Shown here piece by piece: positions 31,926 through 48,347 of a stretch of DNA of 64,000 nt. The number at the start of each line of letters is the position of its first letter. The stretch's first letter is position 1. The DNA is from Streptomyces sp. NRRL B-24484 (lineage in GTDB: Bacteria > Actinomycetota > Actinomycetes > Streptomycetales > Streptomycetaceae): NCBI RefSeq assembly GCF_000717715.1, contig NZ_JOAI01000005.1, positions 310,001-374,000 on the forward strand, given 5' to 3'. The position numbers were made by a program, and so were the translations under genes. The notes beneath the pieces were generated by a model, which was not told where the DNA came from, searched no databases, and worked only from the letters and a program-made list of their open reading frames with translations.

Positions 31926-32034
31926 GCCGAACCCCGGCACCGCCCGCGACCGCCCCGCACCGGCGCCGGCCCCCGCGACCCGGCAGGCCGGCCCCACCCG
32001 CAGACCGAGACGACGACGCCCACGAGGTAGCCGG

Positions 32035-32703
32035 ATGACCACCGTCCTGGAAAGCCCGCTCCACCCGGCGGCCCCCACCGCCCACGGCACCACCACCGCC
32101 GTCCGCGTCCTCCTCGCCGACGGACACCACCTGTTCCGCAGCGGGCTCGGCGCCCTGCTCGGCCGGGAGAGCGACCTCGCCGTGGTCGCCGAATCCCCCA
32201 CCGCCGAGGAGGCCGCCGCCGAGGCCGCCCGCACCAGGCCCGCCGTCGCCGTCCTCGACCCCGACCTGCCCGGCCCCGGCGGCCCCGCCACCGCCGCCCT
32301 CATCCGCGACCGGGCACCCGGCACCGCCCTGCTCCTGCTCACCGCGCAGGCCCGCACCGCCGACCTGCAGCGTGCGGTGGCCGACGGCGTCGCCGGGGTC
32401 CTCCTCAAGGACGTGCCGCCGGCCGCACTGATCGCCGCCGTCCGGGAACTCGCCCGCGGCGGACGGGTCTACGACCCCCGACTGGTCGTCGACGCCGTCC
32501 GCGGCGACGCCTCCCCGCTCACCCCCCGGGAGGTCACCGTCCTCGGCCACGTCGCCGGCGGCTCCACCATCCACGAGGTCGCCGCCGCCCTCTCCCTCTC
32601 CCCCGGCACCGTCCGCAACTACGTCTCCGCCGCCATCGCCAAGACCCGCGCCCGCAACCGCTGCGACGCCATCCGCATCGCCCGCGAACGCGGCTGGCTC
32701 TGA
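32035..32703 (+). CDS. NarL/LuxR-type response regulator (orphan)
   Basis: A 222-residue two-domain regulator. Receiver domain at residues about 22-140: acidic pair in LADGHHLFRSG, phospho-acceptor Asp in VAVLDPDLPG, Thr in LLLLTAQA and the conserved Lys in GVLLKDVP. C-terminal LuxR HTH at about 160-215 (LTPREVTVLGHVAGGSTIHE; SLSPGTVRNYVSAAIAKTRA). All phosphorylation residues are present, but no histidine kinase gene is nearby. It is the gene closest to the 3' end of the RiPP operon, on the opposite strand. Confidence 0.9.
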   Translation: MTTVLESPLHPAAPTAHGTTTAVRVLLADGHHLFRSGLGALLGRESDLAVVAESPTAEEAAAEAARTRPAVAVLDPDLPGPGGPATAALIRDRAPGTALLLLTAQARTADLQRAVADGVAGVLLKDVPPAALIAAVRELARGGRVYDPRLVVDAVRGDASPLTPREVTVLGHVAGGSTIHEVAAALSLSPGTVRNYVSAAIAKTRARNRCDAIRIARERGWL

Positions 32704-32716
32704 AGGGGATCGATTG

Positions 32717-32915: not shown

Positions 32916-32927
32916 CTCGGCTCGGCC

Positions 32928-34415
32928 CTATCCCCTTGCCTCGGCGACCATGTCGGCGAAGCCGTGGGCGGTGCGGGGGACGTCGGACGGGCGGCTGCCG
33001 ATGAGGAATTCGCCGACGGAGGACTCCGCCGTCCAGTCCAGGCCGAGGGCGCGGGCGGCCGCGTCGGTGTCCCCCGAGCCGAGCCCGCAGGGGGCCAGCC
33101 CCATCGCCGTCGCCACCAGGTACAGCGTCTGGTAGACCACGCCGACGTGCTTGAGCGTCAGCGCGTACGCGATCTGGCTGTACTTCCAGGAGAGCCGCCC
33201 GAACCGCGAGGTCACGGTGAGCAGGACCTGCGGGTCGACGCTGCAGCCGGTCGCCCGCCAGGCCGCCGTCATCAGCTCGCGGAAGGCGGTCTCGTCCCCC
33301 GGTCCGGAGAAGGGCCGCGGGCGGAGCCGGTGTGCGGCCGCGTCGTACCGGTAGACCCCGGGCACCAGCCCCTCGCAGCGGACGACCGAGAGGTAGACCT
33401 CCAGTTCGCCGGTGGCGCCGCCGGCCGGGTAGGGCCGGTCGACGATGTCGTAGCCGTGCGGGTCGGCCGGGTCGCCGGGGATCACCCGCCGGACCCGGGC
33501 CACCCGGTAGAGCAGTTCGCCGAGTTGGTCGAGGGTGACGGGCCGCTCGGCGTACGTGCGCACGGAGCGGCGGCCCTCCAGGACTTCGGAGAGGGCCGGG
33601 TCGCGGGCGAGCACTTCGTCCCAGTCGGGGACGGGCAGGTCGATGCCGGCGCCCTCCTCGCGCGGGCCGGTGCCGGGGATCGCCGGCAGCTGGGCGACCT
33701 CGGGGTGGGCGAAGACGCCGCCGCTCGGGTAGTCGTGCCGGCCCGGGCGGCTGCGGGCGTGGAAGAGCAGGTCGTGGAAGTCCCAGAGCGGGGGTTCGCC
33801 CTGGGCGGTGTCGTCGAGGAAGCCCGCGCCGGCGAGCAGTCCGGCGAGCGAGCGTCCGGCGGCCGGGGCGAGCCCGGCCAGCAGGGCCGCTTCGTCGACC
33901 GAGCGGGAGGCGGTGACCGCCGCGACGAAGGCGCCCGCGGCGGGCCGGTGCAGGGTGAGCCGGAAGGGTGCCGTCGGGGATTCGAGGACGCAGGCCCCGG
34001 CGTGCTCCTCGGGCAGCCGTCGCAGGTAGGCGAAGCGGGAGAGCACGGCGGTGTCGGCGGACCGGCCGAGGCCGGGCAGCCCGGCCGAGCGGGCGATCGG
34101 GACGGCGGTGGCCAGCGGCACGCCGAGCGGGTCGGCGAGGGTGGTGGTGACCAGGTACGGGAAGCGCCGCAGCAGGTGCAGCAGCCTGCCGCCGGCGGGG
34201 AGTTCGTCGAGGTCGATCTCGGTGCGGGTGAGTTCGGCGAGCCGGTCGACGGTGTCGGCGCCGAGGGCGTGGACCCGCTGGCGGCCCCAGGGGTGGCTGA
34301 GTTCGAGGTCGTCGCCCTGGGCGGTGACGACGACCTCCGGGCGCAGCCGCAGCAGGGTGCGCAGCGGGCCGCCGCCGGCCGCGAGGTCGGGCGGGAGCTG
34401 TTCGGTCACGGTCAT
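32928..34415 (-). CDS. SagB-type azoline dehydrogenase (RiPP biosynthesis)
   Basis: This 495-residue protein has an N-terminal about 270-residue region with winged-helix-like segments and a C-terminal nitroreductase-fold domain at about 278-495 (GRRSVRTYAERPVTLDQLGE; WKYSQIAYALTLKHVGVVYQ; MGLAPCGLGSGD). This is the SagB form: an FMN enzyme that oxidises azolines made by a YcaO cyclodehydratase to aromatic thiazoles or oxazoles. ATG 34415 sits behind GGAGGAGGT. It is the last gene of the RiPP operon, after the YcaO gene with 58 bp between. Confidence 0.88.
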   Translation of the reverse strand: MTVTEQLPPDLAAGGGPLRTLLRLRPEVVVTAQGDDLELSHPWGRQRVHALGADTVDRLAELTRTEIDLDELPAGGRLLHLLRRFPYLVTTTLADPLGVPLATAVPIARSAGLPGLGRSADTAVLSRFAYLRRLPEEHAGACVLESPTAPFRLTLHRPAAGAFVAAVTASRSVDEAALLAGLAPAAGRSLAGLLAGAGFLDDTAQGEPPLWDFHDLLFHARSRPGRHDYPSGGVFAHPEVAQLPAIPGTGPREEGAGIDLPVPDWDEVLARDPALSEVLEGRRSVRTYAERPVTLDQLGELLYRVARVRRVIPGDPADPHGYDIVDRPYPAGGATGELEVYLSVVRCEGLVPGVYRYDAAAHRLRPRPFSGPGDETAFRELMTAAWRATGCSVDPQVLLTVTSRFGRLSWKYSQIAYALTLKHVGVVYQTLYLVATAMGLAPCGLGSGDTDAAARALGLDWTAESSVGEFLIGSRPSDVPRTAHGFADMVAEARG

Positions 34416-34473
34416 GCGGAGTACCTCCTCCGGGAGGGGCGGGCCGCCGAGCAGCACGGCGGCCCGCACGTCG

Positions 34474-36738
34474 TCAGATGAAGATCGGGACGGGGTTGAG
34501 GTCCTCCTCCCGGGTCGGCCGGTCGAGCCAGCCGAGGGCGAGCGGCACGTCGTAGAGGCGGCCGGGGGCGAAGCGGGCCCAGAAGTGCCGCATGCCGGGG
34601 ACGATCACCTTGGCGACCGGCAGGCCGACGTCGGGGCGGGTCTGGTCGAGCACCAGGAACTCCATGCCTCGTTCCTCGACGAGGCGTCGGGCGAGCCTGA
34701 GGTCGTCGGCGAGGTCGGTGCCGGCGAGTTCCGCCCAGCGGCCTGGGCCGGCGGCCGGGGCTGCGGGGTCGGGCAGCAGGTGCGGGTTGCCGGCGACGGT
34801 GGCCGTGGTCCACCAGGCCTTCTGCTCGGGGTCGGCGCCGGCGTAGCCGACCCGGCCCTCGGCGTCGCCGGCGACGGGGCCGAGGAACTGGTTCATCTCG
34901 GTGAGCGCCCGGGTGAGGGCGATGTGCGGGTCGAGGTGGGCGCCGAAGGCGATCAGGATGTCCTCGGCGGGCTTGTCGAGGCGCCGGGAGAACGCGCCGA
35001 CCACCGGGATGCCGAAGTCCGAGGTGAGGTCGAGCGCCCAGATCTCGCGCCGCAACCCCCGGTAGATGTCGCGGAGTTCGGCGGTGTACGGGTCGCCGAA
35101 GGCATCCAGGTCGACGGCGGGCCGCTGCACCCGGTTGTACCACCAGAGGGCGACGGCGTCGCGTTCGACGAGTTCCAGGAAGCCCTGCAGGGCGGCGTCC
35201 TCGAAGGAGGTCCCTGCCGCGCAGCCGTTGGAGTCGCCGGCGGCGAAGAAGCCGTGGCGGTGCCGGTAGCCGTAGTACAGCGACATGGTGGGCAGCCAGC
35301 GGGTGCGCTGCTCGGTGAGCGACCAGGCGGGCGACCATTCGATCCGGTCGTCCTCGCGGAACCGCTCGGGGACGGTGTTGAACATCGAGCGGCGGGCGTT
35401 CCAGCGGGCCCGCTCCTCGTACTGGCGGTCGCTGTAGAGCAGGGTGCGGGCGGGGTGGATCGCGGCGTCGCCGAGTTCGGTGAAGCTGGCGGTGCGGCGG
35501 GCCTCGTCGCCCTGGAAGACGCCGGAGTAGCGTTCCATCGCCTCGCCGAGGGCGCTGGCCCGGGCCTGGACGTCGGTGCGGCCCTTGCCGCAGCTCACCG
35601 AGCGCAGGCCGGTGCGCAGTTGGCGCAGGTCGCCGCTCTGCCGGGAGAGATTCTGCCCGGAAACGTACACCCGCAGGCCGGTGGGGGTGCGGGCGGCGGG
35701 CACGAGGGAGGTCACCACGCCCGTCACCGGGGAGAGTTGGGGCCGGTAGCGCTCCAGCATGTCCTCCGGGGAGGCGGAGCGGTGGCCGCCGTCGGCGGTG
35801 AAGGCCTTCAGCCGGGGGGCGAACTCGACGGGGGCGAGCTGGCGTTCGGCCATCAGGCCGGCCTCGCCGCAGGCCGGGCACTGCGGGCGGCGGACGAGCT
35901 TGTGGCGTTCGGCCTCCAGCAGGACGGTGTCGAAGGTGAGCACCACCGGCTCCGCGGGACGCACCCCGGCGAGCCACTTGGCGGCCTCCAGGGCGGCGAG
36001 CTGGGCGCCGGTGCCGAGGGTGGGGGCGAGGTGGGCGCCGGCGGTGGAGATCGGGGTGTCCTGGCCGAGCCGGTGCTGCAGGTAGCTGAGCGACTGGCGG
36101 TTGGCGGAGAGCCGGTGGGCGAGGCACTCCCAGCAGCCGGTGGCGTCCTGCCCGGCGTCCGGGGTCGCGGGGACGAAGACCGGGCCGACCCAGACGATCG
36201 AGCCGACCGGGCGGGCGAGCAGCCAGGGGCGGCCGCTCGCGCGGGCGGCGCGGTCCCGGTCGGCGAGGCCGGGGTGCAGGTAGTCCTCGGTGAGGGCGAC
36301 GGTGAACCCGGCGTCCTCGTCGACGGTGACGCCGGCGGCGGCGAGCGCGTCGAGGAAGGGCTGCGGGTCCAGGTCTCCGTACACCTCGACCCGGGCGCGG
36401 GAGGTGCGCAGCGCGGCGGAGGCGGCGGCGCCGTCCAGGCCGGCCATCTCCAGGTAGGCGGCGCCGGCCGGGTCGTCGACGGGACCGGCCGGGGCGAGGT
36501 AGCCGCGGTCGCGGAGGGTGCCGACGGCGCCGAGGACCTTGTCGGCGGGGACGGTGCCGTCCAGGGCGGCACCGATCTGCTCGGGGGTGCGGGTGCCGTC
36601 CAGCAGCGGGGCGAGGCACTGGGCGAGGGCGCCGTCGACCACGGAGACGCCGCGCTCGGAGACCAGGTAGACGGCCTCGCCGTCGACGACGTACGGGGTG
36701 TAGTGGCGTTTGAAGCCGATCGCGGTGGTGTCGGACAT
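34474..36738 (-). CDS. fused leader-binding/YcaO cyclodehydratase (TOMM synthase)
   Basis: A 754-residue protein. Residues 1-90 form a winged-helix leader-recognition (RRE-like) domain. Residues about 110-340 form an inactive E1/ThiF-like domain with a zinc tetrathiolate (GCWECL, Cys202/205; QCPACGE, Cys287/290). Residues about 370-754 form the YcaO domain, with ATP-site residues in SALGEAMERYSG (Glu399, Glu402, Arg403) and LELVERDA (Glu522, Glu525). Such fused enzymes turn Cys/Ser/Thr of a precursor into azolines with ATP. The C-terminus LNPVPIFI is a variant of the Pro-rich tail. The gene is 24 bp after the LanM gene. Confidence 0.92.
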   Translation of the reverse strand: MSDTTAIGFKRHYTPYVVDGEAVYLVSERGVSVVDGALAQCLAPLLDGTRTPEQIGAALDGTVPADKVLGAVGTLRDRGYLAPAGPVDDPAGAAYLEMAGLDGAAASAALRTSRARVEVYGDLDPQPFLDALAAAGVTVDEDAGFTVALTEDYLHPGLADRDRAARASGRPWLLARPVGSIVWVGPVFVPATPDAGQDATGCWECLAHRLSANRQSLSYLQHRLGQDTPISTAGAHLAPTLGTGAQLAALEAAKWLAGVRPAEPVVLTFDTVLLEAERHKLVRRPQCPACGEAGLMAERQLAPVEFAPRLKAFTADGGHRSASPEDMLERYRPQLSPVTGVVTSLVPAARTPTGLRVYVSGQNLSRQSGDLRQLRTGLRSVSCGKGRTDVQARASALGEAMERYSGVFQGDEARRTASFTELGDAAIHPARTLLYSDRQYEERARWNARRSMFNTVPERFREDDRIEWSPAWSLTEQRTRWLPTMSLYYGYRHRHGFFAAGDSNGCAAGTSFEDAALQGFLELVERDAVALWWYNRVQRPAVDLDAFGDPYTAELRDIYRGLRREIWALDLTSDFGIPVVGAFSRRLDKPAEDILIAFGAHLDPHIALTRALTEMNQFLGPVAGDAEGRVGYAGADPEQKAWWTTATVAGNPHLLPDPAAPAAGPGRWAELAGTDLADDLRLARRLVEERGMEFLVLDQTRPDVGLPVAKVIVPGMRHFWARFAPGRLYDVPLALGWLDRPTREEDLNPVPIFI

Positions 36739-36762
36739 GGCGGTCCCTCGGGTCTCGGGCGG

Positions 36763-39700
36763 TCAGCGCAGGGTGGCGAGCGGGGCGGTGGCGGGGTCGA
36801 GCAGGCGCAGCAACAGCAGGCCGACGGCGGCGGTGCCGTCCAGGGCGCCGAGGTTGATCCGGTCGTCGGCGGCCCGGTCGGGGTACCAGCGGCCGGTGGC
36901 CTCGCGGCGGGCGATCAGCTCGCCGACGAGCAGCCCGGCGGCCTCCCGGCCGTCGTAGAACGGGCCGGGCAGCAGCGCGTCGGCACCCTCGGGGACGGTG
37001 TGCAGCAGGCCGGCCTCGGCGGCGGTGAGCGCCTCGGCCGCGGTGGCGACCAGGTCGCGGGTGGTACGGCCGGCGATCTGTGCGGCGCCGACCGGCGGGG
37101 TGAGGGCGCCGAGTTCGGCGGGGTCGACGGTGCCGGCGCCGAGCGAGACGGCGGTGTCCAGGCAGGCGAGCCGGCCGGCCCGGGTCGCGGTGGCGAAGCG
37201 GTGGCCGCGGAGGCGTTCGCGGACGGTCTCGGGGGCGGCGAGCAGGCCGGGCGCCTCGCCGAGGGTGCGGGCGAGGGCGGCGGCGACCGAGTCGGGGCCG
37301 GCCGGGACGAGGTCGAGGAAGCCGTTGTCGGCCGGCTCCTCGCCCGGTTCGGCGGAGAGGGCGTCCAGTGCGGTGGCGGCCAGGGTGCGGATGCCGTCCT
37401 CGGTCGGCGCGTGGCCGGGGCCGGTGGCGCGGCGCAGCCGCAGCAGGTTGAGCAGCAGGCCTGCGGTGCCCATCGGGGTGTCGGGCTGCGGGGTGCGGGC
37501 GGGGCGTCCGGGGCGGGGTTCGGCGGGGGTGGCGACGGCGAGTGCGCCGGGCACCAGGGCCTGGGCGCGGGTGAGGAGTTCGGGTTCGCCGAGCAGGACG
37601 CCGGCGCGGGCGAGGGCGTGGATCAGCGAGCCGGGGCCGGCGAGTCCGCCGGGGACGGGGGCACCGGCGGCGAGCCGGGTGTCGGCGGCGAAGGCGAAGC
37701 CGCGCGGGGAGTCCGGGTCGATGAGGTCGGCGGCGGTGGTGAGGGCGTGCAGGGCGGCACGGTGGAAGCGGGGTTCGCCGGTGGCGGCCCAGAGTTCGGC
37801 GAGCAGCACGGCGAGGCCGGGGGTGCCGGTGACGAGGTCGAGGCCGAGCACCTCGACCTGGCGCAGGTTGGTGCCGGGGTACCAGCTCTGGCCGAGCCAG
37901 CCGTGCCCGCGCCGGTCGGCGAGGATGCGGTCGCCGACGGCGACGGCGTGGCCGAGGAGTTCGCCGGAACCAGGGGTGGCGGTACGGCGGGTGCGGGCGC
38001 CGGCCGGGGCGGGCCGTTCGGTGCCGGCCCGGGCGGCGTCGATGCAGCCGGTGAGGACGGCGAGGTGGGTGTCGAGGTCGAAGGTGTCGAGTTCGGCGAC
38101 CCGGTGCTGGAGGCGCTGCCAGCCGGTGCCCTGGAAGTGTCCGGGGATCTCCCGGCCGTCGGCGGTGAAGACCGAGGTGGAGGTGGTGAGCGAGCGAAAG
38201 AAGGGGATGTCGAGGACGCGGTAGGAGTCGAGTTCGGCGAGGACGACGTCCAGCAGGTCGCCGCGGCCGGGGTCGCCGGCCCGGGCGGTGACGGCGCCGT
38301 GCAGGGCGCCCGCGATGACCGTCTCGCGGGTGGCGCCGCTGTCGAGCGCGAGCGGGCTGGTCGAGGCGCGGACGATCTTGTAACCGTCCCAGGTGTGCCG
38401 CCAGATGTAGCGCACCCAGATGCCCCGGAAGGGCGCCAGCGGGCCGTCCGCGGAGGCGAGTTCGCCGCGCAGTGCGTACAGCGCGGCGTGCATCTCGCGG
38501 TAGCCGGCGGTCAGCTCGTCGGTGTACTGCCACGGGTCGGCGGTCTCGTCGCCGTGGACGGGCCGGTACGGGGGCAGCGGCAGGGCGGGCACGCCGGGGG
38601 CGACCTCCAGGCTGCCGACCCGGGAGAGGCAGCCGATGTCGAGGGCACCGGAGTGCTTGGCGGGCGTCCACGCCTGGAAGGCCATCGCGGTGCGCACCAC
38701 GGTGGACTCCAGCTCGTCGAGCAGGCCGTGCTGGCCGGGGCTGAGCACCGGCGGCGCCTGCACCCGCGGGTAGAGCAGGCACTCCAGGTCGATCAGGGCG
38801 GGGTGCTCGCCGTCGGCGACCAGGTTGTCGGCCCACAGGTCGCGGCCCTCCAGCAGCTGGACGAGCCGGATCGTCATGCCGAGCCGCCGGTAGAAGCGGG
38901 CGAAGCCGCCGCGGTCCGCGCAGGGGCGGTGCGGGACGAGCTCCTCCCAGCCGTAGTCGCTCTCGCAGTCGGCGGCGAGCGAGGCGCCGTGGCCGTCGTC
39001 GCCGCGGTCGCTGCGCAGCAGCACGGTGCGCACCGGCAGGTCGAGCGGGAGGTCCCGGTTGAGCCGGCGGACGAGGTCGAGGTAGGCGGCGGCGTGCCGC
39101 ATGTCCTTGGGCTTGTAGACGACGGCCCGGCCCGTCGCGAAGTGCAGCAGGGCGACCGAGCGGCCGCCGGCGTGCCGGTCGCCGGCGTCGCCGCGGACCC
39201 GGTCGAGCGGGCCCGGGTCCGCGCCCTCCCAGAGCTGTTCGACGAGCAGCGCCCGGTCGGCGGCGAGCCGGGCGAACAGCTCGGTCTGCACGTGCTGCCA
39301 CTGCCGGCAGACGGTGCCGACCAGGTAGGCGAGGGCGGGCAGCCGCTCCAGCCGGGCGAGCCAGCCCTCGGCGGAGGTGTCCAGGCCGCCGGCGGCGTCC
39401 CAGTCGGTGGCGCGCGGGCGGCCGGTGGCGGCCTGCAGCTCGTGGCAGAGCGAGAGGTTGCAGGCCTCGGTGAGCCGGGTGGTCAGGGCGTCGGCCAGGT
39501 CTTTGCGGGCCCGGTCGGTGACCGGGACGCCGAGGATCCCGCCGGGCCCGTCGGGCAGCAGCGCCCGGGCGGCGGCCCCGAAGGCTGCGGTGAGGGCGCC
39601 GGGCGCGGAGGTCTCCGGGCCGGGTGCGGCGGGCAGGGTGCGCAGGAAGGCGGCGAGGGCGAGCGCCCAGGGCGGCAGCGCGGCCGCGTCGGCGAGGACG

Positions 39701-40032
39701 ACCGGGCGCAGGCCGTCGCCGAGCGGCCGGCCGGTCTCCGCGAGGTGGTCGAGCAGGACGCCGGCGCCGCCGTGGCCGCCGGCGGCGCGGCGCAGCCAGG
39801 TGTCGACGGCGGCGGCGCGGGTCCGCCGGTCCTCGTCCGGGTCGGGGGCGAAGTGCGCGGTGCCGTCCGCCCGGGCGGCGGCCCGGTCCTCGAAGGAGGC
39901 CGCGGCGGCCACCACGGCGCGCAGCCGCTCGTCGCCCCGGGCGGTGCCGGGGAGCAGCCGGGCGGGGCCGTCGGCACCCTCGTCGGCGGCTGCGTCGGCG
40001 GGGCGGAGCCAGGTCTGCAGGTCGAGCGACAT
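36763..40032 (-). CDS. LanM-family enzyme with intact elimination site and degenerate LanC domain
   Basis: A 1089-residue protein of class II lanthipeptide synthetase build. The dehydratase part (about 150-650) has the VYKPKD lysines (about 307/309). Its kinase motif reads GRDLWADN, which by spacing aligns to the CylM D-x-H-x-x-N: Asp398 and Asn403 are kept, but the His is Trp400. The following LIDLE Asp415 is kept. The elimination pair is present in RYIWRHTWDGY (Arg541, Thr547). The LanC-like part (about 700-1080) ends normally but has no Cys-His-Gly or other zinc-ligand motif; its few Cys are in unrelated places. I infer a Ser/Thr dehydratase with little or no thioether cyclase activity. 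The start is ATG 40032 behind AGGAGA, and the gene is one base after the ABC gene. Confidence 0.9.
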   Translation of the reverse strand: MSLDLQTWLRPADAAADEGADGPARLLPGTARGDERLRAVVAAAASFEDRAAARADGTAHFAPDPDEDRRTRAAAVDTWLRRAAGGHGGAGVLLDHLAETGRPLGDGLRPVVLADAAALPPWALALAAFLRTLPAAPGPETSAPGALTAAFGAAARALLPDGPGGILGVPVTDRARKDLADALTTRLTEACNLSLCHELQAATGRPRATDWDAAGGLDTSAEGWLARLERLPALAYLVGTVCRQWQHVQTELFARLAADRALLVEQLWEGADPGPLDRVRGDAGDRHAGGRSVALLHFATGRAVVYKPKDMRHAAAYLDLVRRLNRDLPLDLPVRTVLLRSDRGDDGHGASLAADCESDYGWEELVPHRPCADRGGFARFYRRLGMTIRLVQLLEGRDLWADNLVADGEHPALIDLECLLYPRVQAPPVLSPGQHGLLDELESTVVRTAMAFQAWTPAKHSGALDIGCLSRVGSLEVAPGVPALPLPPYRPVHGDETADPWQYTDELTAGYREMHAALYALRGELASADGPLAPFRGIWVRYIWRHTWDGYKIVRASTSPLALDSGATRETVIAGALHGAVTARAGDPGRGDLLDVVLAELDSYRVLDIPFFRSLTTSTSVFTADGREIPGHFQGTGWQRLQHRVAELDTFDLDTHLAVLTGCIDAARAGTERPAPAGARTRRTATPGSGELLGHAVAVGDRILADRRGHGWLGQSWYPGTNLRQVEVLGLDLVTGTPGLAVLLAELWAATGEPRFHRAALHALTTAADLIDPDSPRGFAFAADTRLAAGAPVPGGLAGPGSLIHALARAGVLLGEPELLTRAQALVPGALAVATPAEPRPGRPARTPQPDTPMGTAGLLLNLLRLRRATGPGHAPTEDGIRTLAATALDALSAEPGEEPADNGFLDLVPAGPDSVAAALARTLGEAPGLLAAPETVRERLRGHRFATATRAGRLACLDTAVSLGAGTVDPAELGALTPPVGAAQIAGRTTRDLVATAAEALTAAEAGLLHTVPEGADALLPGPFYDGREAAGLLVGELIARREATGRWYPDRAADDRINLGALDGTAAVGLLLLRLLDPATAPLATLR

Positions 40033-40033
40033 C

Positions 40034-42274
40034 TCACATCTCCTGGAGTCGGGCGAGGCGGGTGAACAGCGGGTCGGTGCCGAGCAGTTCGTCGTACGTG
40101 CCGGCGGCGGTGACCCGCCCGCCGGAGAGCACGTGGATGCGGTCGGCGGTGCGGACGGTGCTGAGCCGGTGGGCGATGACGATGCGGGTGGTGTCGAGGC
40201 CGGCGACGGCCTCGGCGACCTTGCGCTGGGTGGCGTTGTCGAGGGCGGAGGTGGCCTCGTCGAGCAGCAGCACGGCGGGCCGGCGGACGAGGGCGCGGGC
40301 CAGCAGCAGCCGCTGGACCTGGCCGCCGGAGAAGCCCTGGGCGTCCTCGCCGATCCGGGTGCCGAGGCCGAGCGGCAGGCGGCGCAGGTCGTCGGCGATG
40401 CCGGCGAGTTCGGCGGCCTCCCAGATGCGGTCCTCGGTGACCTCGCTGTCGGTGCCGGCGAGGTTCTCCAGCAGCGAGCCGCGCAGCATCCGGCCGTGCT
40501 GGAGGACGGCGCCGAGCCGGCGGCGGACCAGTCGGGCGTCGAGCGTGGCGAGGTCGCGGCCGTCGTAGCGGACGGTGCCGGACTCCGGCTGCTCGAAGCC
40601 GAGCAGCAGCCGGACGAGGGTGGACTTGCCGGCGCCGGACGGGCCGACCACGGCGACGAGTTCGCCGGGTGCGGCGTGCAGCGAGACGCCGTCCAGGGCG
40701 GGGGCGGCGGTGCCCGGGTAGCGGAACACCGCGTTCTCCAGGGCGACCTCGCCGCCGAGCGGGCCCGGGTCGGCGAGCGCCCCGCGGCGCTCGCTCGGTC
40801 CGGACTCGGCGAGGATCGGCCGCAGCCGGTGCAGCACGGGGGCGATGCCGTACGCACCGGCGGCGGCGTGGGTGACCTGGCCGAGCGCCATGGCGATCTG
40901 GCCGGCCGCGACACCGGCGGCCATCAGGTGCCCGGACGGGGTGTCCCCGGCCGCCGTCGCGCCCGCCAGCAGCACCGCCAGCAGCAGCGGCTGCAGGGCG
41001 GCGGTCAGCGCGCCCGCCGCGGCGTCGGCCCGCTGGGCGGCGGCGTCGGCCCGCTTCTGCGCGGCGAAGGGCACCGCCCAGCGGGCGAAGGCCTGGATCT
41101 CCCGGCCCGCCGTCTGGATCTTGTCGATGCCGAGCAGCAGCCCGTACAGCACGCCCTGCAGCCGGCCGTGCAGGGCGAACACCTCGCTCTCGTACCGCTG
41201 CCGGCGGCGGCCGAGGGCCAGCAGCAGCCCGGTGACCACCAGGACGGCGAGCAGCAGCAGCGCGCCGAGCCACGGGTCGACCAGCAGCAGCACGGTCAGC
41301 CCGGAGGTGGCGAACACCGCGCCGAGCACGGCGCCGACCAGCACCTCGGACATCGCCTGGCGGGCCTGGGCGACGGCGTTCGCCCGGTGCACCAGGTCGC
41401 CGGTGGTGAAGTCGCGGAAGAACCGGGCGTCGTGGCCCAGCAGCCGGTCCCAGACGGCCGGTTCCAGTGCGGACTGCACCCGCCCGGTCAGCCGGACGGC
41501 CGCCGTGTTGCGGACGAGCACCAGCAGCCAGGACGCCGCCACCGCCGACCCCAGCAGCAGGGCCAGCCAGCGGACGGGGTGCCGGTCCGCCGCGAGCAGC
41601 TTCGGCAGCAGCACACCGGTGCTGAGCGGCACCAGCAGGCCGAGCAGGGCCGCGGCCAGGCCGGCCGCGGTGAGCCGGCCGAGGTCCCGGCGGGCACCCG
41701 GGACGGCCAGCACGAACCGGGCCAGCCCGGCCGGACCGAGCGCACCGGGCGGCAGCGGCGGGTACAGCAGCAGTGCCCGCCGCTGCAGCGCCACCCGGTG
41801 CTTGCGGCCGGCGGGTCGGGCGCCCGCCGGGTCGTACCGCCGGTGGCCGCCGGACGGGCGCGGCACCAGCGCGATCGGACGGCCGTCGTCCGCGGCGAAC
41901 CCGACCACCGGGCCGGCCAGCCCGGCCGGGTCGCCGTACCCGTCCGGGCACTCCGGCAGGGTGATCGGGCGGGACCGCACCCCGGCCGACCGCAGCAGCG
42001 CGGCCAGCGGGTCACGGGCCGTCCGCACCGCGGCGGGCAGGTCCGCGGGCGGCCGGCCGTCCTCGCTGCGGAGGCCCGGCGGGTCGAGGCCGAGCGCGTC
42101 GAGGACGGCCCGGGCCCGGTCGGCCGGCTCGGTGGCGGCGGGCGGCGGTGCGGCGGCCGCCGGGCCCGCGGTGTGCAGCTCGCCGAGGGCGGCGGCCAGC
42201 GCCGCCCGGTTGGCGGCGGCGGTGGCGGCCGGACCCGAGGTTGCGGGGGCCGCCGGGGTCGTCGCGGTGGTCAT
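40034..42274 (-). CDS. NHLM-type ABC exporter (permease-ATPase)
   Basis: A 746-residue protein. The about 200-residue N-terminal cytoplasmic region lacks a peptidase Cys. Six hydrophobic helices (about 205-470) are followed by an ABC ATPase (VVGPSGAGKSTLVRLLLGFE, about 545; FSGGQVQRLLLARALVRRPA; VLLLDEATSALD). This matches the ATP-binding partner of NHLM bacteriocin export pairs, which forms a heterodimer with a C39-containing exporter. It overlaps the C39 gene by four bases (ATGA). Plasma membrane; role is export of the modified peptide. Confidence 0.88.
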   Translation of the reverse strand: MTTATTPAAPATSGPAATAAANRAALAAALGELHTAGPAAAAPPPAATEPADRARAVLDALGLDPPGLRSEDGRPPADLPAAVRTARDPLAALLRSAGVRSRPITLPECPDGYGDPAGLAGPVVGFAADDGRPIALVPRPSGGHRRYDPAGARPAGRKHRVALQRRALLLYPPLPPGALGPAGLARFVLAVPGARRDLGRLTAAGLAAALLGLLVPLSTGVLLPKLLAADRHPVRWLALLLGSAVAASWLLVLVRNTAAVRLTGRVQSALEPAVWDRLLGHDARFFRDFTTGDLVHRANAVAQARQAMSEVLVGAVLGAVFATSGLTVLLLVDPWLGALLLLAVLVVTGLLLALGRRRQRYESEVFALHGRLQGVLYGLLLGIDKIQTAGREIQAFARWAVPFAAQKRADAAAQRADAAAGALTAALQPLLLAVLLAGATAAGDTPSGHLMAAGVAAGQIAMALGQVTHAAAGAYGIAPVLHRLRPILAESGPSERRGALADPGPLGGEVALENAVFRYPGTAAPALDGVSLHAAPGELVAVVGPSGAGKSTLVRLLLGFEQPESGTVRYDGRDLATLDARLVRRRLGAVLQHGRMLRGSLLENLAGTDSEVTEDRIWEAAELAGIADDLRRLPLGLGTRIGEDAQGFSGGQVQRLLLARALVRRPAVLLLDEATSALDNATQRKVAEAVAGLDTTRIVIAHRLSTVRTADRIHVLSGGRVTAAGTYDELLGTDPLFTRLARLQEM

Positions 42275-44643
42275 GCGGTCTCCTGGGTGCCGGTCGCCCG
42301 GTCGGCGAGCGGGGTGTCGGTGCGCGCGGTGTCGGCCAGCAGCGTGTCGGCGCGCGCGGTGTCGGCGAGCGCGGTGTCGGCGAGCGCGGTGTCGGCCAGC
42401 AGGGTGCGGTACGGGCCCGGGACGGCGGCGAGTTCGGCCGGGGTGCCCTGCTGGACGATCCGGCCGTCCGCGATCACCACCACCCGGTCGGCGGCCTGCA
42501 CGGTGCTCAGCCGGTGGGCGAGCACCAGGCAGCTCGTGCCGCGGCGGCGCAGGTGCGCGTTGACGGCGGCCTCGGTGTGGGCGTCGAGGGCCGAGGTGGC
42601 CTCGTCCAGGACCAGCAGGGCCGGCTCCAGGGCGAGCGCCCGGGCGAGTTCCAGGCGCTGGCGTTCGCCGCCGGAGAGGTTGCGGGCGTCCTCCTCGATC
42701 CGGGCGCCGTCCGGGCCGCCGCGGCGGCGCACCAGCTCGGCGGCCTCGGCGTCGGCGAGCGCCCGGTGCAGGGCGTCCTCGGGCAGGGTCGGGTCCCAGA
42801 GCGTGAGGTTCTCCCGGACGGTGCCCTCGAAGAGCCGCAACTGCTGTTCCACGTAAGCCACCTGGGCGGTCACCACGGACCGGTGCCAGTCGTCGCGGGG
42901 GCGCCCGTCGAGCAGCACCCGGCCGCTCCAGGGCCGGAGCACCCCGGCGGCGAGCCGGGCCACGGTGGACTTGCCGCTGCCGCTGGTGCCGACCACGGCG
43001 ACCCACTCCCCCGGGCGGATCCGCAGCGAGATGCCGGAGATCGCCGGCGGCCGGTTGGGGTCGTAGCCGAAGGAGACGTCCTGCAGCTCCAACTCACCGC
43101 TCAGCCGGACGGGTTCGGCGGGTGCGTCGAGGACGGGGGCGAGGAAGGGGTCCGGCTCGGTGGTCTCCACGTCCTCCAGCAGCGCGTTCTGCGCCCGGGC
43201 GACGGTGAACTCCGACCCGACGCCGACCAGTTGGCCGACCGGCAGGAGGAAGCCGTTGAGCAGCAGCAGGAAGGCCACCAGGGTGCCCAGGGTGAGCGAG
43301 CCGCCGAGCAGCAGCGCGGTGCCCGCCACCACCACGGTCGCGGTGGCGGCCGAGTTGAGCGCACCCGGCAGCGACAGCGGCACGATCACCGCGGCCGTCA
43401 CTTTCTGGCCGGTCTCCATCGCCCGGGCCTGCCAGCCTGCCCAGGAGCGGAAGAAGGAGTCCTCGGCGCCCTCGGCCTTGACCGTCTCGATCGCCGACAC
43501 CCCGGCGAAGGCGACGCCGTCGCGCTTGTACTGCTCGGCGTGCAGCCGGTGCACCAGACCGCCGCGGCGCCGGTCGGCGACCCGCAGCGCCAGCACGTCC
43601 AGCACCGCGACGGCGACCGGCACGGCCACGAGCCGGGGCTCCAGCCAGGCCAGCGCGCCCAGGTGGACGGCGGCCCCGGCGGCGGAGGCGGCGGCGCCCG
43701 CGGCCCGGTACGAGAGCAGCGCGGCCAGGCCGTCGTTCATCTGCACCCGGGTCACCAGGCCGCCGAGCTGCCGCCGGTGGAAGAACGAGCCGGGCAGCCG
43801 CAGCATCCGCCAGAGGAAGCCGGACGAGCCGCGGGCGGCCATCGCCTCCAGCACCCGGTTGACCAGGCTCTGCTGCAGCCAGGTGCCGAGCAGCACCGTC
43901 GCGGCGACGGCGGCCGCCGTCAGGGTCAGCGGCAGCGCCCAGGAGGCGGTGCCGGCCAGGGTCACCGAGGCGAGGTAGGCCCGCAGCAGGAACGCCGCCG
44001 CCACCCCCGGCACCGCCAGCAGCACCGCCAGCAGCACGGCGAGCAGCAGCGGGCCGGCGAACGGCCGCATCCGGCCGGTCAGGGCGTGGAGCAGCGGGAA
44101 GCGGCGGCCGCCGCGCTCGAAGTCCGGGCCCGGTTCGAAGCCGACCGCGATCCCGGCGAAGGACTCCCAGAACTCCCCGGGCGAGGCCGAGTAGGTGCCG
44201 AGGGAGGGGTCGTTGATGTGGACGCGGCCGCGCCGGACGCCCTCGAAGACGGCGAAGTGCGGGCCGGTGACCAGCACCATCGACGGCACCGGCACCTTCT
44301 CCAGGCCGAGCAGCCGGCCCTCGGCGCGCACCACCCGGCGGCCGCGGGCGTTCAGCCCGTACCGGCCGGCGGCGCGGGCCACCGCGGCGGCGCTCACCCC
44401 GTCCCGGCTGACCCCGCAGGACCGGGACGCCTCCTGCAGGGTCACCCGCCGGCCGAAGGCGCCGAGCACCACGGCGAGGCAGGCGGCGCCGCAGTCCTGC
44501 TCCTCCATCTGCGGGACCACCGGGGTGCGCAGGTACCGGCGCGGCCTGCGCCGCCGCGAGGCCTTCGCGGGCTTCTGCGGCACGGCGGCCCGGCCGGGCG
44601 CGTCAGCGGCGGCGGCCGGGGTCTCCCGGACGTCGAGGCTCAT
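42271..44643 (-). CDS. C39 peptidase-ABC exporter (leader-cleaving, NHLM type)
   Basis: A 790-residue protein. Its C39 peptidase domain (residues 40-170) has the complete site: Gln45, Cys51 in EEQDCGAACLAVVL, His129 in GPHFAVFEG and Asp145 in HINDPSLG. Transmembrane helices lie at about 185-470. The ABC ATPase has VVGTSGSGKSTVARLAAGVL, LSGGERQRLELARAL and LLVLDEATSALD. C39 domains cut RiPP leaders after Gly-Gly during export, matching the precursor at 46950. The C-terminus carries an unusual five-residue repeat tail. Both gene ends overlap neighbours by four bases. Confidence 0.93.
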   Translation of the reverse strand: MSLDVRETPAAAADAPGRAAVPQKPAKASRRRRPRRYLRTPVVPQMEEQDCGAACLAVVLGAFGRRVTLQEASRSCGVSRDGVSAAAVARAAGRYGLNARGRRVVRAEGRLLGLEKVPVPSMVLVTGPHFAVFEGVRRGRVHINDPSLGTYSASPGEFWESFAGIAVGFEPGPDFERGGRRFPLLHALTGRMRPFAGPLLLAVLLAVLLAVPGVAAAFLLRAYLASVTLAGTASWALPLTLTAAAVAATVLLGTWLQQSLVNRVLEAMAARGSSGFLWRMLRLPGSFFHRRQLGGLVTRVQMNDGLAALLSYRAAGAAASAAGAAVHLGALAWLEPRLVAVPVAVAVLDVLALRVADRRRGGLVHRLHAEQYKRDGVAFAGVSAIETVKAEGAEDSFFRSWAGWQARAMETGQKVTAAVIVPLSLPGALNSAATATVVVAGTALLLGGSLTLGTLVAFLLLLNGFLLPVGQLVGVGSEFTVARAQNALLEDVETTEPDPFLAPVLDAPAEPVRLSGELELQDVSFGYDPNRPPAISGISLRIRPGEWVAVVGTSGSGKSTVARLAAGVLRPWSGRVLLDGRPRDDWHRSVVTAQVAYVEQQLRLFEGTVRENLTLWDPTLPEDALHRALADAEAAELVRRRGGPDGARIEEDARNLSGGERQRLELARALALEPALLVLDEATSALDAHTEAAVNAHLRRRGTSCLVLAHRLSTVQAADRVVVIADGRIVQQGTPAELAAVPGPYRTLLADTALADTALADTARADTLLADTARTDTPLADRATGTQETA
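42295..42402 (-). repeat. 15-bp coding tandem repeat (LADTA pentads)
   Basis: About seven imperfect copies of a 15-bp unit (GTGTCGGCGAGCGCG on the + strand) encode LADTA-LADTA-LADTA-RADTL-LADTA-type pentads at the extreme C-terminus of the C39 exporter, after the ATPase domain. Confidence 0.8.
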
Positions 44644-45599
44644 CGCGCGACCCCCTTGCCGAGCACGGCCTGGTACGGGTGGCGGGCGCCGAGGTCGAGG
44701 TTCACGGTGACCGGCAGCGGGCCCGGCAGGGCCGCCGCCGACCGCTGTGCGGCGGGCGGGAGTTCGGCGTACGCCGTCCAGACCGGGGCCGCACCGGCGG
44801 GCAGGCCCGGCAGGGCGACGGGCAGGGTGCCGTCCAGCGAGTCGGCGCGGGCGGGCAGCGGGTCGACGGCGGTGATCACGGCCCGGACGGGCGCCCCACC
44901 GGGGACGGGGACGAGCACCGTCCGGCCCGGCCGCAGCTCCCGGGCCCGCGTCGGGTCGGTGGCGAACAGCCGGACGGTCAGCGGGAGTCCGGCCGGGTCG
45001 AGGGTGAGGACGGGCGCGCCGGGGGCCAACAGCCCGCCAGGGCCGGCCGCCAGCGCGGAGACCGTGCCGGCCCGATCGGCCCGCACCTCGGACTGGCGCC
45101 CGTCGGTGCCGCGCACCACGGCCACGGCCTGCCCGGCCGCCACCCGCTCGCCGGGCGACACCAGCAGGCGGACGAGCGTGCCCGCCTGCTCGGCCCGGAC
45201 GGTCGCCGGGGCGGTGCCGTGGGCCACCACTGCGGGCAGGGCCACGGTGTGCGGCAGCGTGCCGAGCACCACCCAGGCCGTCCCGGCACCGACCGCGAGC
45301 AGCAGCGCCGCGGCGGCGGCCGACAGCCGGGCACCGACCAGCCGTACCGGCTGGTCCAGCCCGGGTTCGAGGACGGCCGCGGCCCGCCCGGCGGCCGCCG
45401 CGGTCGCGGGGGTCGCGGGGGTCGCGGGGGTCGGCTCTGCCGTGCGCGCCGCGCCGGGTGGTGCGGGCTCGGGCGGGGGCGTCGGGGCCGGGGCCTGCTC
45501 CCCCGCGGCGGTGGGCGTCGGAGTCACGGCCGGCTTCGGGGCCGGTGCGGCGGTCGTGCCGCCGCGGCGGGCGCGCTTCCTGGTGGCGGTTCCGCTCAT
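44640..45599 (-). CDS. HlyD-like membrane-fusion secretion protein
   Basis: A 319-residue protein. Residues 1-90 form a Pro/Ala/Thr-rich cytoplasmic tail. One membrane helix (about 100-120, AAAAALLLAVGAGTAWVVLG) is followed by lipoyl/barrel-sandwich halves (RAEQAGTLVRLLVSPGERVA; SEVRADRAGTVSALAAGPGG) and a beta-barrel (about 215-310). This corresponds to the NHLM secretion-protein family that works with the two ABC exporters. ATG 45599 overlaps the P450 stop (ATGA). The two lipoyl halves are close together, with no long coiled coil, as expected in a monoderm. Confidence 0.85.
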   Translation of the reverse strand: MSGTATRKRARRGGTTAAPAPKPAVTPTPTAAGEQAPAPTPPPEPAPPGAARTAEPTPATPATPATAAAAGRAAAVLEPGLDQPVRLVGARLSAAAAALLLAVGAGTAWVVLGTLPHTVALPAVVAHGTAPATVRAEQAGTLVRLLVSPGERVAAGQAVAVVRGTDGRQSEVRADRAGTVSALAAGPGGLLAPGAPVLTLDPAGLPLTVRLFATDPTRARELRPGRTVLVPVPGGAPVRAVITAVDPLPARADSLDGTLPVALPGLPAGAAPVWTAYAELPPAAQRSAAALPGPLPVTVNLDLGARHPYQAVLGKGVAR

Positions 45600-46846
45600 G
45601 CCTGCCCCACCTCCGCGAGGACCGGTCGGGGCGGGCACTGCAGCGGTAGTTCGCGCAGGCCGCCGAAGACGAACTGGGTGCTCCAGGGGGCGGTTCGGGC
45701 GGTGAGCGGGGTGCTCAGGGCACGGTGCTCGCCGGCCGCCGCGAGACCCCGCAGGACGGCGGCCCCCGCCATCAGGGAGAGCGGGGCGCCGAGGCAGTGG
45801 TGCGGACCGTGGCCGAAGGCCAGGTGGCGCAGTTCGGCCCGGTCCGGGTCGAAGCGGTCGGGATCGGCGAAGCGCCGCGGGTCCCGGTTGGCGGCGGCGT
45901 ACAGCAGCAGGACGACCCGGCCCGCCGGGATCACCGTCCCGGCGACCTCCACCTCGCGGGTCAGGGCACGGGCACTGGCCCGGACGGGGCTGCCGAGCCG
46001 CTGGGCCTCGTCGAAGACGGCGGCGGCGTCGGCGGGCCGCTCGCGCAGCCGCTCGGCGAGCCCCGGGGTGTGCAGCAACTGCCAGACGGCGAAGGAGAGT
46101 CCCGAGGTGAGCGTCTCCAGGCCGTTGGCCAGCAGCATGACGACGAAGGCCAGCAGGTCCTGGTCGTCGAGCCGGCCCTCGCCGCGGGCGGCCGCGAGTC
46201 GGCTGATCAGGTCGTCGCCGGGCCGGGCCGCGCGGGAGGCGCAGAGTTCCTCCACGTAGCCGCGGAACTCCTCGAACTCCGCGTCGAGTTCGGCGATGCG
46301 GGCGGCACCCTCGGTGCCGTCGAAGTCGTCCAGCAGGGAGCGGGCGACCAGGCGGGCCCAGCCGGTGACGCGGTCCTGCTCGCTGTCGGGGATGTCGAGG
46401 ATCGCGCAGGAGACGGCGACCGGCAGCGGCACGGACAGGTCGGCGACCACGTCGAACGCGCCTGCGGCGAGAAGGGGTCGGAGCATCCGCCCGGCGGTGG
46501 ACTCGATCCGCTGCCGCATCTGCTCCAGCCGGCGGGCGCTGAAGGCGGTGGTGGCGAGCCGCTTGAGCCGGGTGTGGTCGGCGCCGTCGCGCATCGGCAG
46601 CATCCGGTCGACCACGCGGGAGAGCGCGGTGGCACCGGCCCGGGGCAGCCCGACGGCGGTCGGGTCGACGGTGGTGCCGGGGTGCATGAGGACGGTGACG
46701 ATCTCCTCGTAGCCGGCCACGACGTGCACCCGGCCGAGGTCGAGGACCGGCGCCTCGGCGAGCAGTCGGCGGTAGAGCGCGGGTGGGTCCTGCTGCGCGG
46801 CGGGCTGTTGGATGAACCGCGTCAGCTCGTGCCGGAGGCTGTCCAT
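45596..46846 (-). CDS. cytochrome P450 of the RiPP cluster
   Basis: A 416-residue P450. The I-helix reads LLANGLETLTSG, with Asn at a position often Gly or Ala. ExxR is in FDEAQRLG, and the heme loop is LAFGHGPHHCLGAPLS (Cys about 345). It is the first enzyme gene after the precursor and is coupled to the exporter genes, so peptide oxidation (hydroxylation or crosslinking) is likely. ATG 46846 has GAGGAG upstream. Ferredoxin and reductase must come from elsewhere. Confidence 0.92.
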   Translation of the reverse strand: MDSLRHELTRFIQQPAAQQDPPALYRRLLAEAPVLDLGRVHVVAGYEEIVTVLMHPGTTVDPTAVGLPRAGATALSRVVDRMLPMRDGADHTRLKRLATTAFSARRLEQMRQRIESTAGRMLRPLLAAGAFDVVADLSVPLPVAVSCAILDIPDSEQDRVTGWARLVARSLLDDFDGTEGAARIAELDAEFEEFRGYVEELCASRAARPGDDLISRLAAARGEGRLDDQDLLAFVVMLLANGLETLTSGLSFAVWQLLHTPGLAERLRERPADAAAVFDEAQRLGSPVRASARALTREVEVAGTVIPAGRVVLLLYAAANRDPRRFADPDRFDPDRAELRHLAFGHGPHHCLGAPLSLMAGAAVLRGLAAAGEHRALSTPLTARTAPWSTQFVFGGLRELPLQCPPRPVLAEVGQA

Positions 46847-46901
46847 GCCCGGCTCTCCTCAACTGGGTCGGTGGCGTGCGGAGTTGGGCGCGGAAACAGG
46901 G

Positions 46902-46941
46902 GTGCCGCGGTGGAACCCGCAGGGCGGGCCCACCGCGGCAC
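46902..46941 (-). terminator. hairpin between precursor and P450 genes (attenuator-like)
   Basis: A perfect 12-bp stem (46902-46913 with 46930-46941) and a 16-nt loop start 8 nt after the precursor stop and before the P450 gene. In RiPP operons such hairpins commonly let most transcripts end after the precursor gene or protect its 3' end, so far more precursor than enzyme is made. Confidence 0.7.
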
Positions 46942-46949
46942 AGGACCCG

Positions 46950-47114
46950 TTACTCCGCGGCGGTCTCCGCGGCCGAGTTGGACACGGAGCTGAAGCTGGA
47001 GACCGGGCAGGCGGCGCAGGCCAGCGAGCTGACGCTGATGCCACCGTTGACGGTGTCGAGCTCCTCGACCTCGATGTCGAACTGCTCGTTCTCGGTGATC
47101 TCGTTCTCGGCCAT
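46950..47114 (-). CDS. RiPP precursor peptide with Gly-Gly leader site
   Basis: A 54-residue peptide. The leader (1-25) is acidic, carries FDIEVEELD (12-20), similar to azole-peptide/thiopeptide leader recognition sequences, and ends TVNGG, a C39 cleavage site. The core (26-54) starts ISVSSLACAACPVSS and holds nine Ser, one Thr and two Cys (33, 36), with an acidic AAETAAE end. The Cys are candidates for thiazoles, the Ser for dehydroalanines. ATG 47114 with GGAGGGAG upstream is clearly better than earlier starts. It is the first gene of the operon. Confidence 0.88.
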   Translation of the reverse strand: MAENEITENEQFDIEVEELDTVNGGISVSSLACAACPVSSFSSVSNSAAETAAE

Positions 47115-47282
47115 GGTGGTCTCCCTCCGATGGTCGGCGCCGCACCCCGGCCGGGGCCCGGTCACCGTTCTCCGCCTTCGTCCGCCGGCCTTTTCTCCGG
47201 CTCGCTCTCGGCGACGAGAAAAATATGCACCCGGGGCACAGGAGCGCGACAGTAAGGGATGTCAGGAATTCACCCGTGGAAA

Positions 47283-47334
47283 ATGACACACCGCCTCACA
47301 TGACATTTTGAACCGCTTCTGACCTGGCTATATG
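47283..47334 (+). promoter_or_regulatory. candidate promoter with direct repeats for the divergent exporter
   Basis: The 47215-47340 stretch is far more A/T-rich than its surroundings. Facing the ABC genes, TTGAAC (47308-47313) and TATATG (47329-47334) could be -35/-10 boxes with a short 15-bp spacer. Two ATGACA direct repeats (47283-47288, 47300-47305), 17 bp apart, lie just upstream like an activator site. The oppositely oriented precursor promoter must lie in the same region. Confidence 0.4.
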
Positions 47335-47378
47335 TGGACTCTTGCCTTGGCCGCGCATCACCCCTCACGCTGTATTCC

Positions 47379-48347
47379 ATGACATCCACCAACAGCTCCG
47401 GAATTCCCGGGACGGCAGCCGTGGAGGTGCGGGACCTGCACCGCCGCTACGGCGATTACGAGGCGGTGCGCGGCGTGTCCTTCACCGTCGCCCACGGAGA
47501 ACTCTTCGCCCTGCTCGGCACCAACGGCGCCGGCAAGACGACCACGCTGGAGGTGCTGGAGGGCTACGGCCCGCCGAGCTCCGGCACGGTCCGGGTGTTC
47601 GGCCTGGACCCGTACGCGCAGGGGCCGGAGGTCCGCCGGCGCACCGGCGTGATGCTCCAGGAGGGCGGCTTCTTCAAGGAGTTGACCGTCGCGGAGACGG
47701 TCGACTCCTGGCGCACCTTCCTCACCGGGCCGCGGCCGACCGCCGAGGTGCTGGCCCAGGTCGGGCTCACCGAGCGGGCGGGCACCCGGGTCGCCCAGCT
47801 GTCCGGCGGCGAACGGCGCCGGCTGGACCTCGCGCTGGCCGTGCTGAACGGCCCCGACCTGCTCTTCCTGGACGAGCCCACCACCGGCATGGACCCGGAG
47901 GCCCGCCGCACCACCTGGCGGATCGTCAGGGAGTTGCAGGCCTCCGGCACCACCGTGCTGCTGACCACCCACTACCTGGAGGAGGCCCAGCAGTTGGCCG
48001 ACCGGGTGGCCATCATGGACAAGGGCCGGCTGGCCGCGGTCGGCACGGTGGAGGAGGTGCTCTCCGGCCACGGCACCCGGATCACCTTCCCGCTGCCGAA
48101 GGGCGTCAGCGAGGCCCAACTGCCACAGGTGCTGGGCGGGTCGGCGAGCGTCACGGACGGCGTCGCGGTGTACACGGCGGCCCGGACCGCCCCGGCGCTG
48201 GCCGCGCTGCACGCCTGGGCGGCCGAGTGGTCGGTGGAGCTGGACGGCATCGAGGTGCGGTCCGCCTCCCTGGAGGACGTCTTCCTGGAACTGGCGCACG
48301 ACGGCCGCGACACCGGCGCGGCGCACGAAGGGGCAGGTGCACGATGA
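47379..48347 (+). CDS. DrrA/CcmA-type ABC transporter ATPase
   Basis: A 322-residue ATP-binding subunit: Walker A LLGTNGAGKTTTLEVLEGYG (about residues 45-64), signature LSGGERRRLDLALAVL and Walker B DLLFLDEPTTGMDPEA, then the C-terminal DUF4162-like tail of DrrA-type exporters. It is divergent from the RiPP operon and coupled to the permease gene by an ATGA overlap. Probable job: self-protection against, or secondary export of, the RiPP product. ATG 47379 lacks a clear ribosome site. Confidence 0.92.
   Translation: MTSTNSSGIPGTAAVEVRDLHRRYGDYEAVRGVSFTVAHGELFALLGTNGAGKTTTLEVLEGYGPPSSGTVRVFGLDPYAQGPEVRRRTGVMLQEGGFFKELTVAETVDSWRTFLTGPRPTAEVLAQVGLTERAGTRVAQLSGGERRRLDLALAVLNGPDLLFLDEPTTGMDPEARRTTWRIVRELQASGTTVLLTTHYLEEAQQLADRVAIMDKGRLAAVGTVEEVLSGHGTRITFPLPKGVSEAQLPQVLGGSASVTDGVAVYTAARTAPALAALHAWAAEWSVELDGIEVRSASLEDVFLELAHDGRDTGAAHEGAGAR

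Follow-up and report, generated by a model that had tools for sequence, protein, structure and literature searches.

A probable short-leader RiPP operon of the dehydrazole type in Streptomyces sp. NRRL B-24484

Introduction

The closest described relatives of the operon reported here are the dehydrazoles, a class of about 50 clusters, mostly from Proteobacteria and Actinobacteria, that combine a LanMbC enzyme, a YcaO protein and a dehydrogenase (Pei, Zhu and Nair 2023, PMC10676384). As set out there, the precursor of each cluster bears a long nitrile-hydratase-like leader, and a sub-clade of the proteusins has been suggested. Carnazolamide, from the cca cluster, is without lanthionine; the dehydratase CcaM dehydrates only Ser residues that precede an azole, does not need the leader and requires its own cyclase domain (PMC10676384). 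The same text mentions that Streptomyces sp. SN-593 has a cluster in which LanMbC and YcaO are joined by a P450, and notes that goadsporin and the thiopeptides carry azoles and dehydroalanine (Dha) in one peptide. Some lanthipeptide clusters also contain YcaO and P450 genes, according to Walker et al. (PMC7268733). Among the main texts of open-access journal articles searched, the terms dehydrazole and carnazolamide appear only in PMC10676384, whose main text does not contain the words C39, transporter or Kitasatospora.

The operon lies in a 64,000-nucleotide stretch of Streptomyces sp. NRRL B-24484 DNA, the whole of which we call the window; it is not described in the consulted passages of the decRiPPter paper (PMC7794033). 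A sequence-only reading of the window had presented the operon as a union of two chemistries usually found apart, which the dehydrazole class, with its roughly 50 clusters, had already joined (PMC10676384). The architecture is thus not new in kind, the class having been described in 2023 with a P450-bearing Streptomyces cluster among its members. Like the dehydrazoles, the window has a DUF4135 dehydratase gene 24 bp from a YcaO gene, a cyclase domain that lacks zinc ligands as judged by sequence only, an azoline dehydrogenase, and a core rich in Ser, Thr and Cys. Unlike the precursors described in PMC10676384, its own has a 25-residue leader that ends in GG and is served by a C39 exporter, not a long nitrile-hydratase-like one. 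It also differs from the cca cluster, in that no rSAM epimerase, methyltransferase or S8 peptidase is found among its eight genes and a P450 is present. We regard the operon as a dehydrazole variant, not a typical member; its leader and export arrangement is not described in the consulted passages of PMC10676384.

The DUF4135 dehydratase fold and residues, the C39 exporter and the GG leader are shared with class II lanthipeptides (CylM, LicM2), from which the operon departs by the presence of YcaO and SagB and by the missing motifs of the zinc-dependent LanC-like cyclase (Cys, Cys, His); on this last ground an ordinary class II lanthipeptide system is rejected. The fused cyclodehydratase and SagB-type oxidase recall the cyanobactin/LAP machinery (LynD, TruD, MusD; CyaGox), to which the window adds a LanM-type dehydratase, a P450 and a GG leader. 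Goadsporin and the thiopeptides use split LanB glutamyl-tRNA dehydratases, whereas the window enzyme is of the LanM type. The locus matters because its core is shared between a short GG-leader precursor and long-leader proteusins, and because it offers a compact system for testing directly how dehydration depends on azoles and which stretch of the leader YcaO requires. Should it merely repeat the SN-593 cluster of PMC10676384, it would be a further member with a clearer core.

Results and discussion

Operon layout and gene identities

Eight genes run on the minus strand from 47114 down to 32928, in the order precursor, P450, HlyD-like, C39/ABC, second ABC, LanM-like, fused YcaO and SagB (Table 1); the coordinates, strand and gene names of the sequence-only reading hold. 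The intergenic gaps are 103, -4, -4, -4, 1, 24 and 4 bp, which points to a single operon comprising at least the seven genes for enzymes and transport, and third-position GC is 0.94-0.98 (P450, C39/ABC, YcaO and SagB). A scan of 46800-47450 found no sigma-70-like promoter site; upstream of the precursor it gave a single terminator-like site (47240-47226), with 0.3 expected by shuffling.

Table 1. Features of the operon and its conserved neighbours, in window coordinates.
Feature	Coordinates	Strand	Basis
Precursor peptide, 54 aa (leader of 25 aa with GG end; conserved core of 21 aa; variable tail of 8 aa)	46950..47114	-	ATG preceded by GGAGGGAG; homologs
Cytochrome P450, 416 aa	45596..46846	-	PF00067, 86 bits
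HlyD-like adaptor, 319 aa	44640..45599	-	HlyD_3 PF13437, PF00364
C39 peptidase/ABC exporter, 790 aa; presumed GG leader cleavage and export	42271..44643	-	PF03412, PF00664, PF00005
Second ABC exporter, NHLM_ABC2 type, 746 aa	40034..42274	-	TIGR03797
LanM-type dehydratase, cyclase domain without zinc-ligand motifs (LanMbC-like), 1089 aa	36763..40032	-	DUF4135 PF13575; CylM/LicM2 alignment; tree
Fused leader-binding (TIGR03882) and YcaO cyclodehydratase, 754 aa	34474..36738	-	PF02624, TIGR03604, TIGR03882; LynD/TruD/MusD relatives
SagB/ThcOx-type azoline dehydrogenase, 513 aa	32928..34469	-	PF22767, PF00881, TIGR03605; CyaGox relative
Divergent DrrA-like ABC ATPase, candidate export/self-protection	47334..48347	+	PF00005; 14/14 full-operon Streptomycetaceae loci
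Probable ABC permease partner of the DrrA-like ATPase	48344..49237	+	similar gene in 12/14 full-operon loci
Response regulator, candidate regulator	32035..32703	+	PF00072, PF00196; beside SagB in 14/14 loci
LuxR-type regulator, conserved neighbour	29853..30800	-	PF00196; 14/14 loci, 70-98% identity

The two exporters resemble NHLM families at scores under the model cut-offs: the best NCBIfam match of the C39/ABC protein is TIGR03796 NHLM_ABC1 (692.5 bits, cut-off 853.3), and the second ABC protein reaches 605.7 bits with TIGR03797 NHLM_ABC2 (cut-off 709.4). The YcaO protein matches PF02624 at 335 bits and both TIGR03604 and the leader-binding TIGR03882 above cut-off, and its nearest solved relatives in the PDB are the azoline-forming LynD (605.8 bits), TruD (578.5) and MusD (565.1). 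SagB matches TIGR03605 above cut-off, with the oxidase CyaGox as nearest solved relative (233 bits). Elsewhere in the same genome (G000:C23:145218-147473) lies the gene for another fused YcaO-type protein, which is 44% identical along nearly its full length. The nearest solved relatives of the P450 are general bacterial P450s, so its reaction is not readable from homology, and the RiPP P450 model ApyO scores it at 68.7 against a cut-off of 525.

Spread and conserved neighbourhood

Scanning genomes with the LanM alignment gave 34 loci, 15 of them in Streptomycetaceae. The precursor and all seven other genes recur in the same order in 14 of these 15 (L001-L013 and L015), which indicates that the operon is not a chance assembly; near-duplicates among the 14 include three K. 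phosalacinea strains. The sequence-only reading was right in taking the first gene, 46950..47114, as the precursor, and a matching precursor is present at each of the 14. The nearest locus is that of Kitasatospora sp. DSM 101779, where LanM is 96% identical in the tree set; across the family the search matches give LanM identities of 62-94%. In the window's genus LanM was found at E < 1e-60 in 13 of 46 sampled genomes, its own included, and a profile search at 1e-100 found it in 5 of 46 genomes of the family sample. The LanM gene of L010 appears to be in pieces (best segment 683 aa; protein record P0039, 798 aa), so intactness is not established for every copy. The fifteenth locus, L014 of Streptomyces sp. 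CBMA156, lies at a contig end; it retains LanM residues 186-730 without any further gene of the operon, and appears to be a broken or wrongly assembled copy.

The eight genes do occupy 32928-47114, as had been proposed, but neighbours are kept on both sides of them, extending the conserved neighbourhood to about 29853-49237. For the DrrA-like ATPase the coding score favours a start at 47421. The permease-like gene beside it matches no Pfam family, and no counterpart was found at 1e-5 in L011 or L013.

A probable LanMbC-type dehydratase

The LanM-like protein matches DUF4135 (PF13575) at 269 bits, with a weak LANC_like match (PF05147, 26 bits, above the cut-off of 23.2) and a score of 303.6 against the LanM model TIGR03897, just under its cut-off of 304; as its cyclase part has diverged, the match stops at model position 713 of 932. 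Among solved structures it is related to LicM2 (89.6 bits) and to CylM (29.2 bits). Residues D285, H287, K307, D398, N403 and D415 align with D252, H254, K274, D347, N352 and D364 of CylM, which we take to be catalytic, and R541 and T547, presumably the counterparts of CylM R506 and T512, are invariant in both LanM alignments (A3 and A4). The dehydratase part of the earlier assignment as a LanM enzyme therefore stands, as these residues are kept, while the cyclase part does not share the zinc-ligand motifs and leaves TIGR03897 under cut-off.

The cyclase zinc motif C-[HNQ]-G was absent from the window protein and from all 67 nearest hits (P0001-P0067, some partial or chimeric), and was present in 15 of 22 more distant hits (P0068-P0089); six of those 22 show neither searched motif, so that a missing motif is not specific by itself. 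Alignment with ordinary LanM proteins likewise shows the zinc-ligand motifs of the window protein to be missing. Its final 400 residues contain one Cys, and the missing motifs argue against lanthionines. The NCBIfam model LanKC (class III) matches residues 724-873 at a weak 19.6 bits. In a tree of 34 chosen rows, with 20 of the 34 loci, 13 chosen proteins and several long branches, the window protein and 26 LanMbC-like proteins form a clade of 27 rows (99/99) apart from five ordinary LanM rows. The enzyme is not an ordinary lanthionine synthetase and would appear to be of the LanMbC type, a membership that rests on shared features and not on direct comparison, as CcaM is not among the protein hits; neither CcaM nor the SN-593 protein appears by name among the 102 hits of the further protein search (A4).

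The precursor and its nearly invariant core

The precursor search yielded 35 homologs, of which 33 were aligned with that of the window (34 rows; P0090 and P0092 were left out). The leader ends in GG in 24 of the 34 and in AG in the other 10, both of which fit C39 processing. The 21-residue core is almost invariant: there are 17 distinct cores, in which positions 4, 5, 10-16, 18 and 21 never vary. S4, S5, S14, S15 and S18 are present in all 34 precursors, as are Cys11 and Phe16, and S17 is replaced by Gly in two. The unpaired Ser residues can be replaced by Ala, which stands at S2 in two of the 34 and at S20 in four. Position 8 is Cys in 26 precursors and Ser in eight; in the Streptomycetaceae (the window and 14 loci) it is Ser in 11 of 15 sequences.

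Beyond the core, 16 precursors end at Asn21 and 18 bear a variable tail of 4-8 residues. As the tail is variable and missing from so many precursors, it suggests that the product would end at Asn21. Among the 15 loci the tail occurs in 10/10 Kitasatospora and 0/5 Streptomyces/Actinacidiphila; P0107, named Streptomyces, has a tail. Over 105 pairs the un-normalised codon differences number 544 synonymous against 204 nonsynonymous in the core and 107 against 140 in the leader, where the counts do not point to amino acids being more constrained than codons. The conserved core suggests a constrained, useful activity.

A longer precursor start with an NHLP leader was considered and rejected: the visible letters of the in-frame 71-aa extension (46950-47165) give no such match, and a strong ribosome-binding site precedes the ATG at 47114. 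The window precursor matched neither TIGR04351 nor TIGR03793 at E 0.1.

Proposed product and alternatives

We consider it probable that the window encodes a RiPP operon of the dehydrazole type whose precursor leader has been shortened, with the chemistry read from the genes; azoles and dehydroalanines in one small peptide are the best-supported product type. In this model, the fused YcaO protein would bind the leader, likely through its FDIEVEELD stretch, and cyclise core Cys and Ser, after which SagB would oxidise the azolines to azoles. The LanM-like enzyme would phosphorylate and then eliminate Ser standing before an azole, resulting in Dha and no lanthionine. The P450, which occurs at 17 of the 34 loci and accompanies the window-type core at all 15 loci, is for the latter reason likely to take part in making the product, where it would add an oxidation or a cross-link; the invariant Phe16 and Cys11 are candidate sites. 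Cleavage behind the GG would fall to the C39 exporter, which, together with HlyD and the second ABC protein, would also export the peptide.

Applying the CcaM rule to the core predicts azoles at S5, C8, C11, S15 and S18 and Dha at S4, S14 and S17, resulting in three putative Dha-oxazole pairs at the Ser-Ser pairs. The computed [M+H]+ of this predicted mature core is about 1861.78 before the P450 and about 1877.77 with one added oxygen; were the tail kept, the values would be 2592.1 and 2608.1. Support for the predicted sites is moderate, and stems from the Cys/Ser exchange at position 8, which fits an azole and not a thioether, and from the fixed second Ser of each pair. Three Ser-Ser pairs among eight Ser in 21 positions are about what chance provides (2.7 expected). 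TruD is known as a Cys-only cyclodehydratase; were the window YcaO likewise restricted to Cys, no Ser would stand in front of an azole, and under the CcaM rule Dha would not be formed.

This dependence of Dha on predicted Ser azoles lends some plausibility to a product bearing azoles only, with LanM vestigial or acting on something else. Such an outcome seems quite unlikely, given that LanM keeps its catalytic residues, is present in 14/14 full-operon loci and is 62-94% identical across Streptomycetaceae. Alternatively, LanM could form a thioether at Cys11 with a class III-like cyclase that needs no zinc, to give a lanthipeptide/azole hybrid, a route with which the retained cyclase domain (the weak PF05147 match) and the invariance of Cys11 in 34/34 precursors are both compatible. 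We judge this unlikely, as the zinc-ligand motifs are missing, Cys8 is replaceable by Ser, and the characterised enzyme of the LanMbC type, although it cannot dehydrate without its cyclase domain, forms no lanthionine (PMC10676384).

A thiopeptide-like product is less plausible still. The model NF033482 does match the precursor, at 22.3 bits, but below its cut-off of 25, and although several homologs are named thiocillin family RiPP at NCBI, the 19 window proteins scanned contain no LanB-type dehydratase domain (Pfam), no pyridine synthase was recognised among their general family matches, and the number of Cys in the core is only one or two. On the sub-cut-off score and the missing LanB domain we reject a thiopeptide identity. 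The public name thiocillin family RiPP is for this reason misleading, the enzymes not being those of a thiopeptide.

Long-leader relatives and other lineages

Near-identical cores also occur behind long leaders. The metagenomic protein P0124 has a nitrile-hydratase-like leader (TIGR04351, 65.8 bits, cut-off 65) whose end, GDLSIEELEGVAAG, aligns with FDIEVEELDTVNGG of the window and is followed by a near-identical core. Minicystis rosea (Myxococcota, L016) has a P450, LanM, YcaO and SagB together with a precursor whose nitrile-hydratase-like leader scores 54.1 with TIGR04351, under cut-off. Its core is identical at 17 of 21 positions, as opposed to 41-53% identity for LanM, P450, YcaO and SagB, and no match to the transport genes was found within 10 kb. 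Given nearly the same core behind a long leader in both Minicystis and P0124, the short leader of the window is best interpreted as what remains of a proteusin leader after trimming; that the change ran this way is our inference.

A further proposal, possible but doubtful on present comparisons, is that these systems form a distinct dehydrazole branch, found in Streptomycetaceae and a myxobacterium. Such a branch would have lost the nitrile-hydratase leader domain except for its final part (FDIEVEELD..GG), acquired GG/C39 processing and come to make a single, almost fixed peptide that carries three Dha-oxazole pairs and is modified by the P450, which may cross-link Phe16 or Cys11.

The remaining lineages share parts of the enzyme set. 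Fourteen Streptosporangiaceae loci (L017-L027, L029, L031 and L032) have the C39/ABC, second ABC, LanM, YcaO and SagB genes, and at these loci we found no P450 match, no heme motif and no window-type core. The members inspected have nearby small genes with nitrile-hydratase-like leaders and other cores, and the loci seem to hold several precursors each; at L017:4289-4570, for instance, a small ORF before the HlyD gene combines a nitrile-hydratase-like leader with the Cys-rich end PCLDFCFCWMQVSK. Two Chloroflexi loci (L033 and L034) match LanM alone. The metagenomic protein P0138 joins a partial DUF4135 to a YcaO domain, a fusion that could be natural or an artefact of assembly. Two Micromonosporaceae loci (L028 and L030) have the P450 and not the window-type core. 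Small ORFs with CFC-x-GTFCW-type ends lie just before the P450 at both of these (L028:3389-3610 and L030:3465-3740), and might be the precursors from which these enzymes make another product, one that contains Trp.
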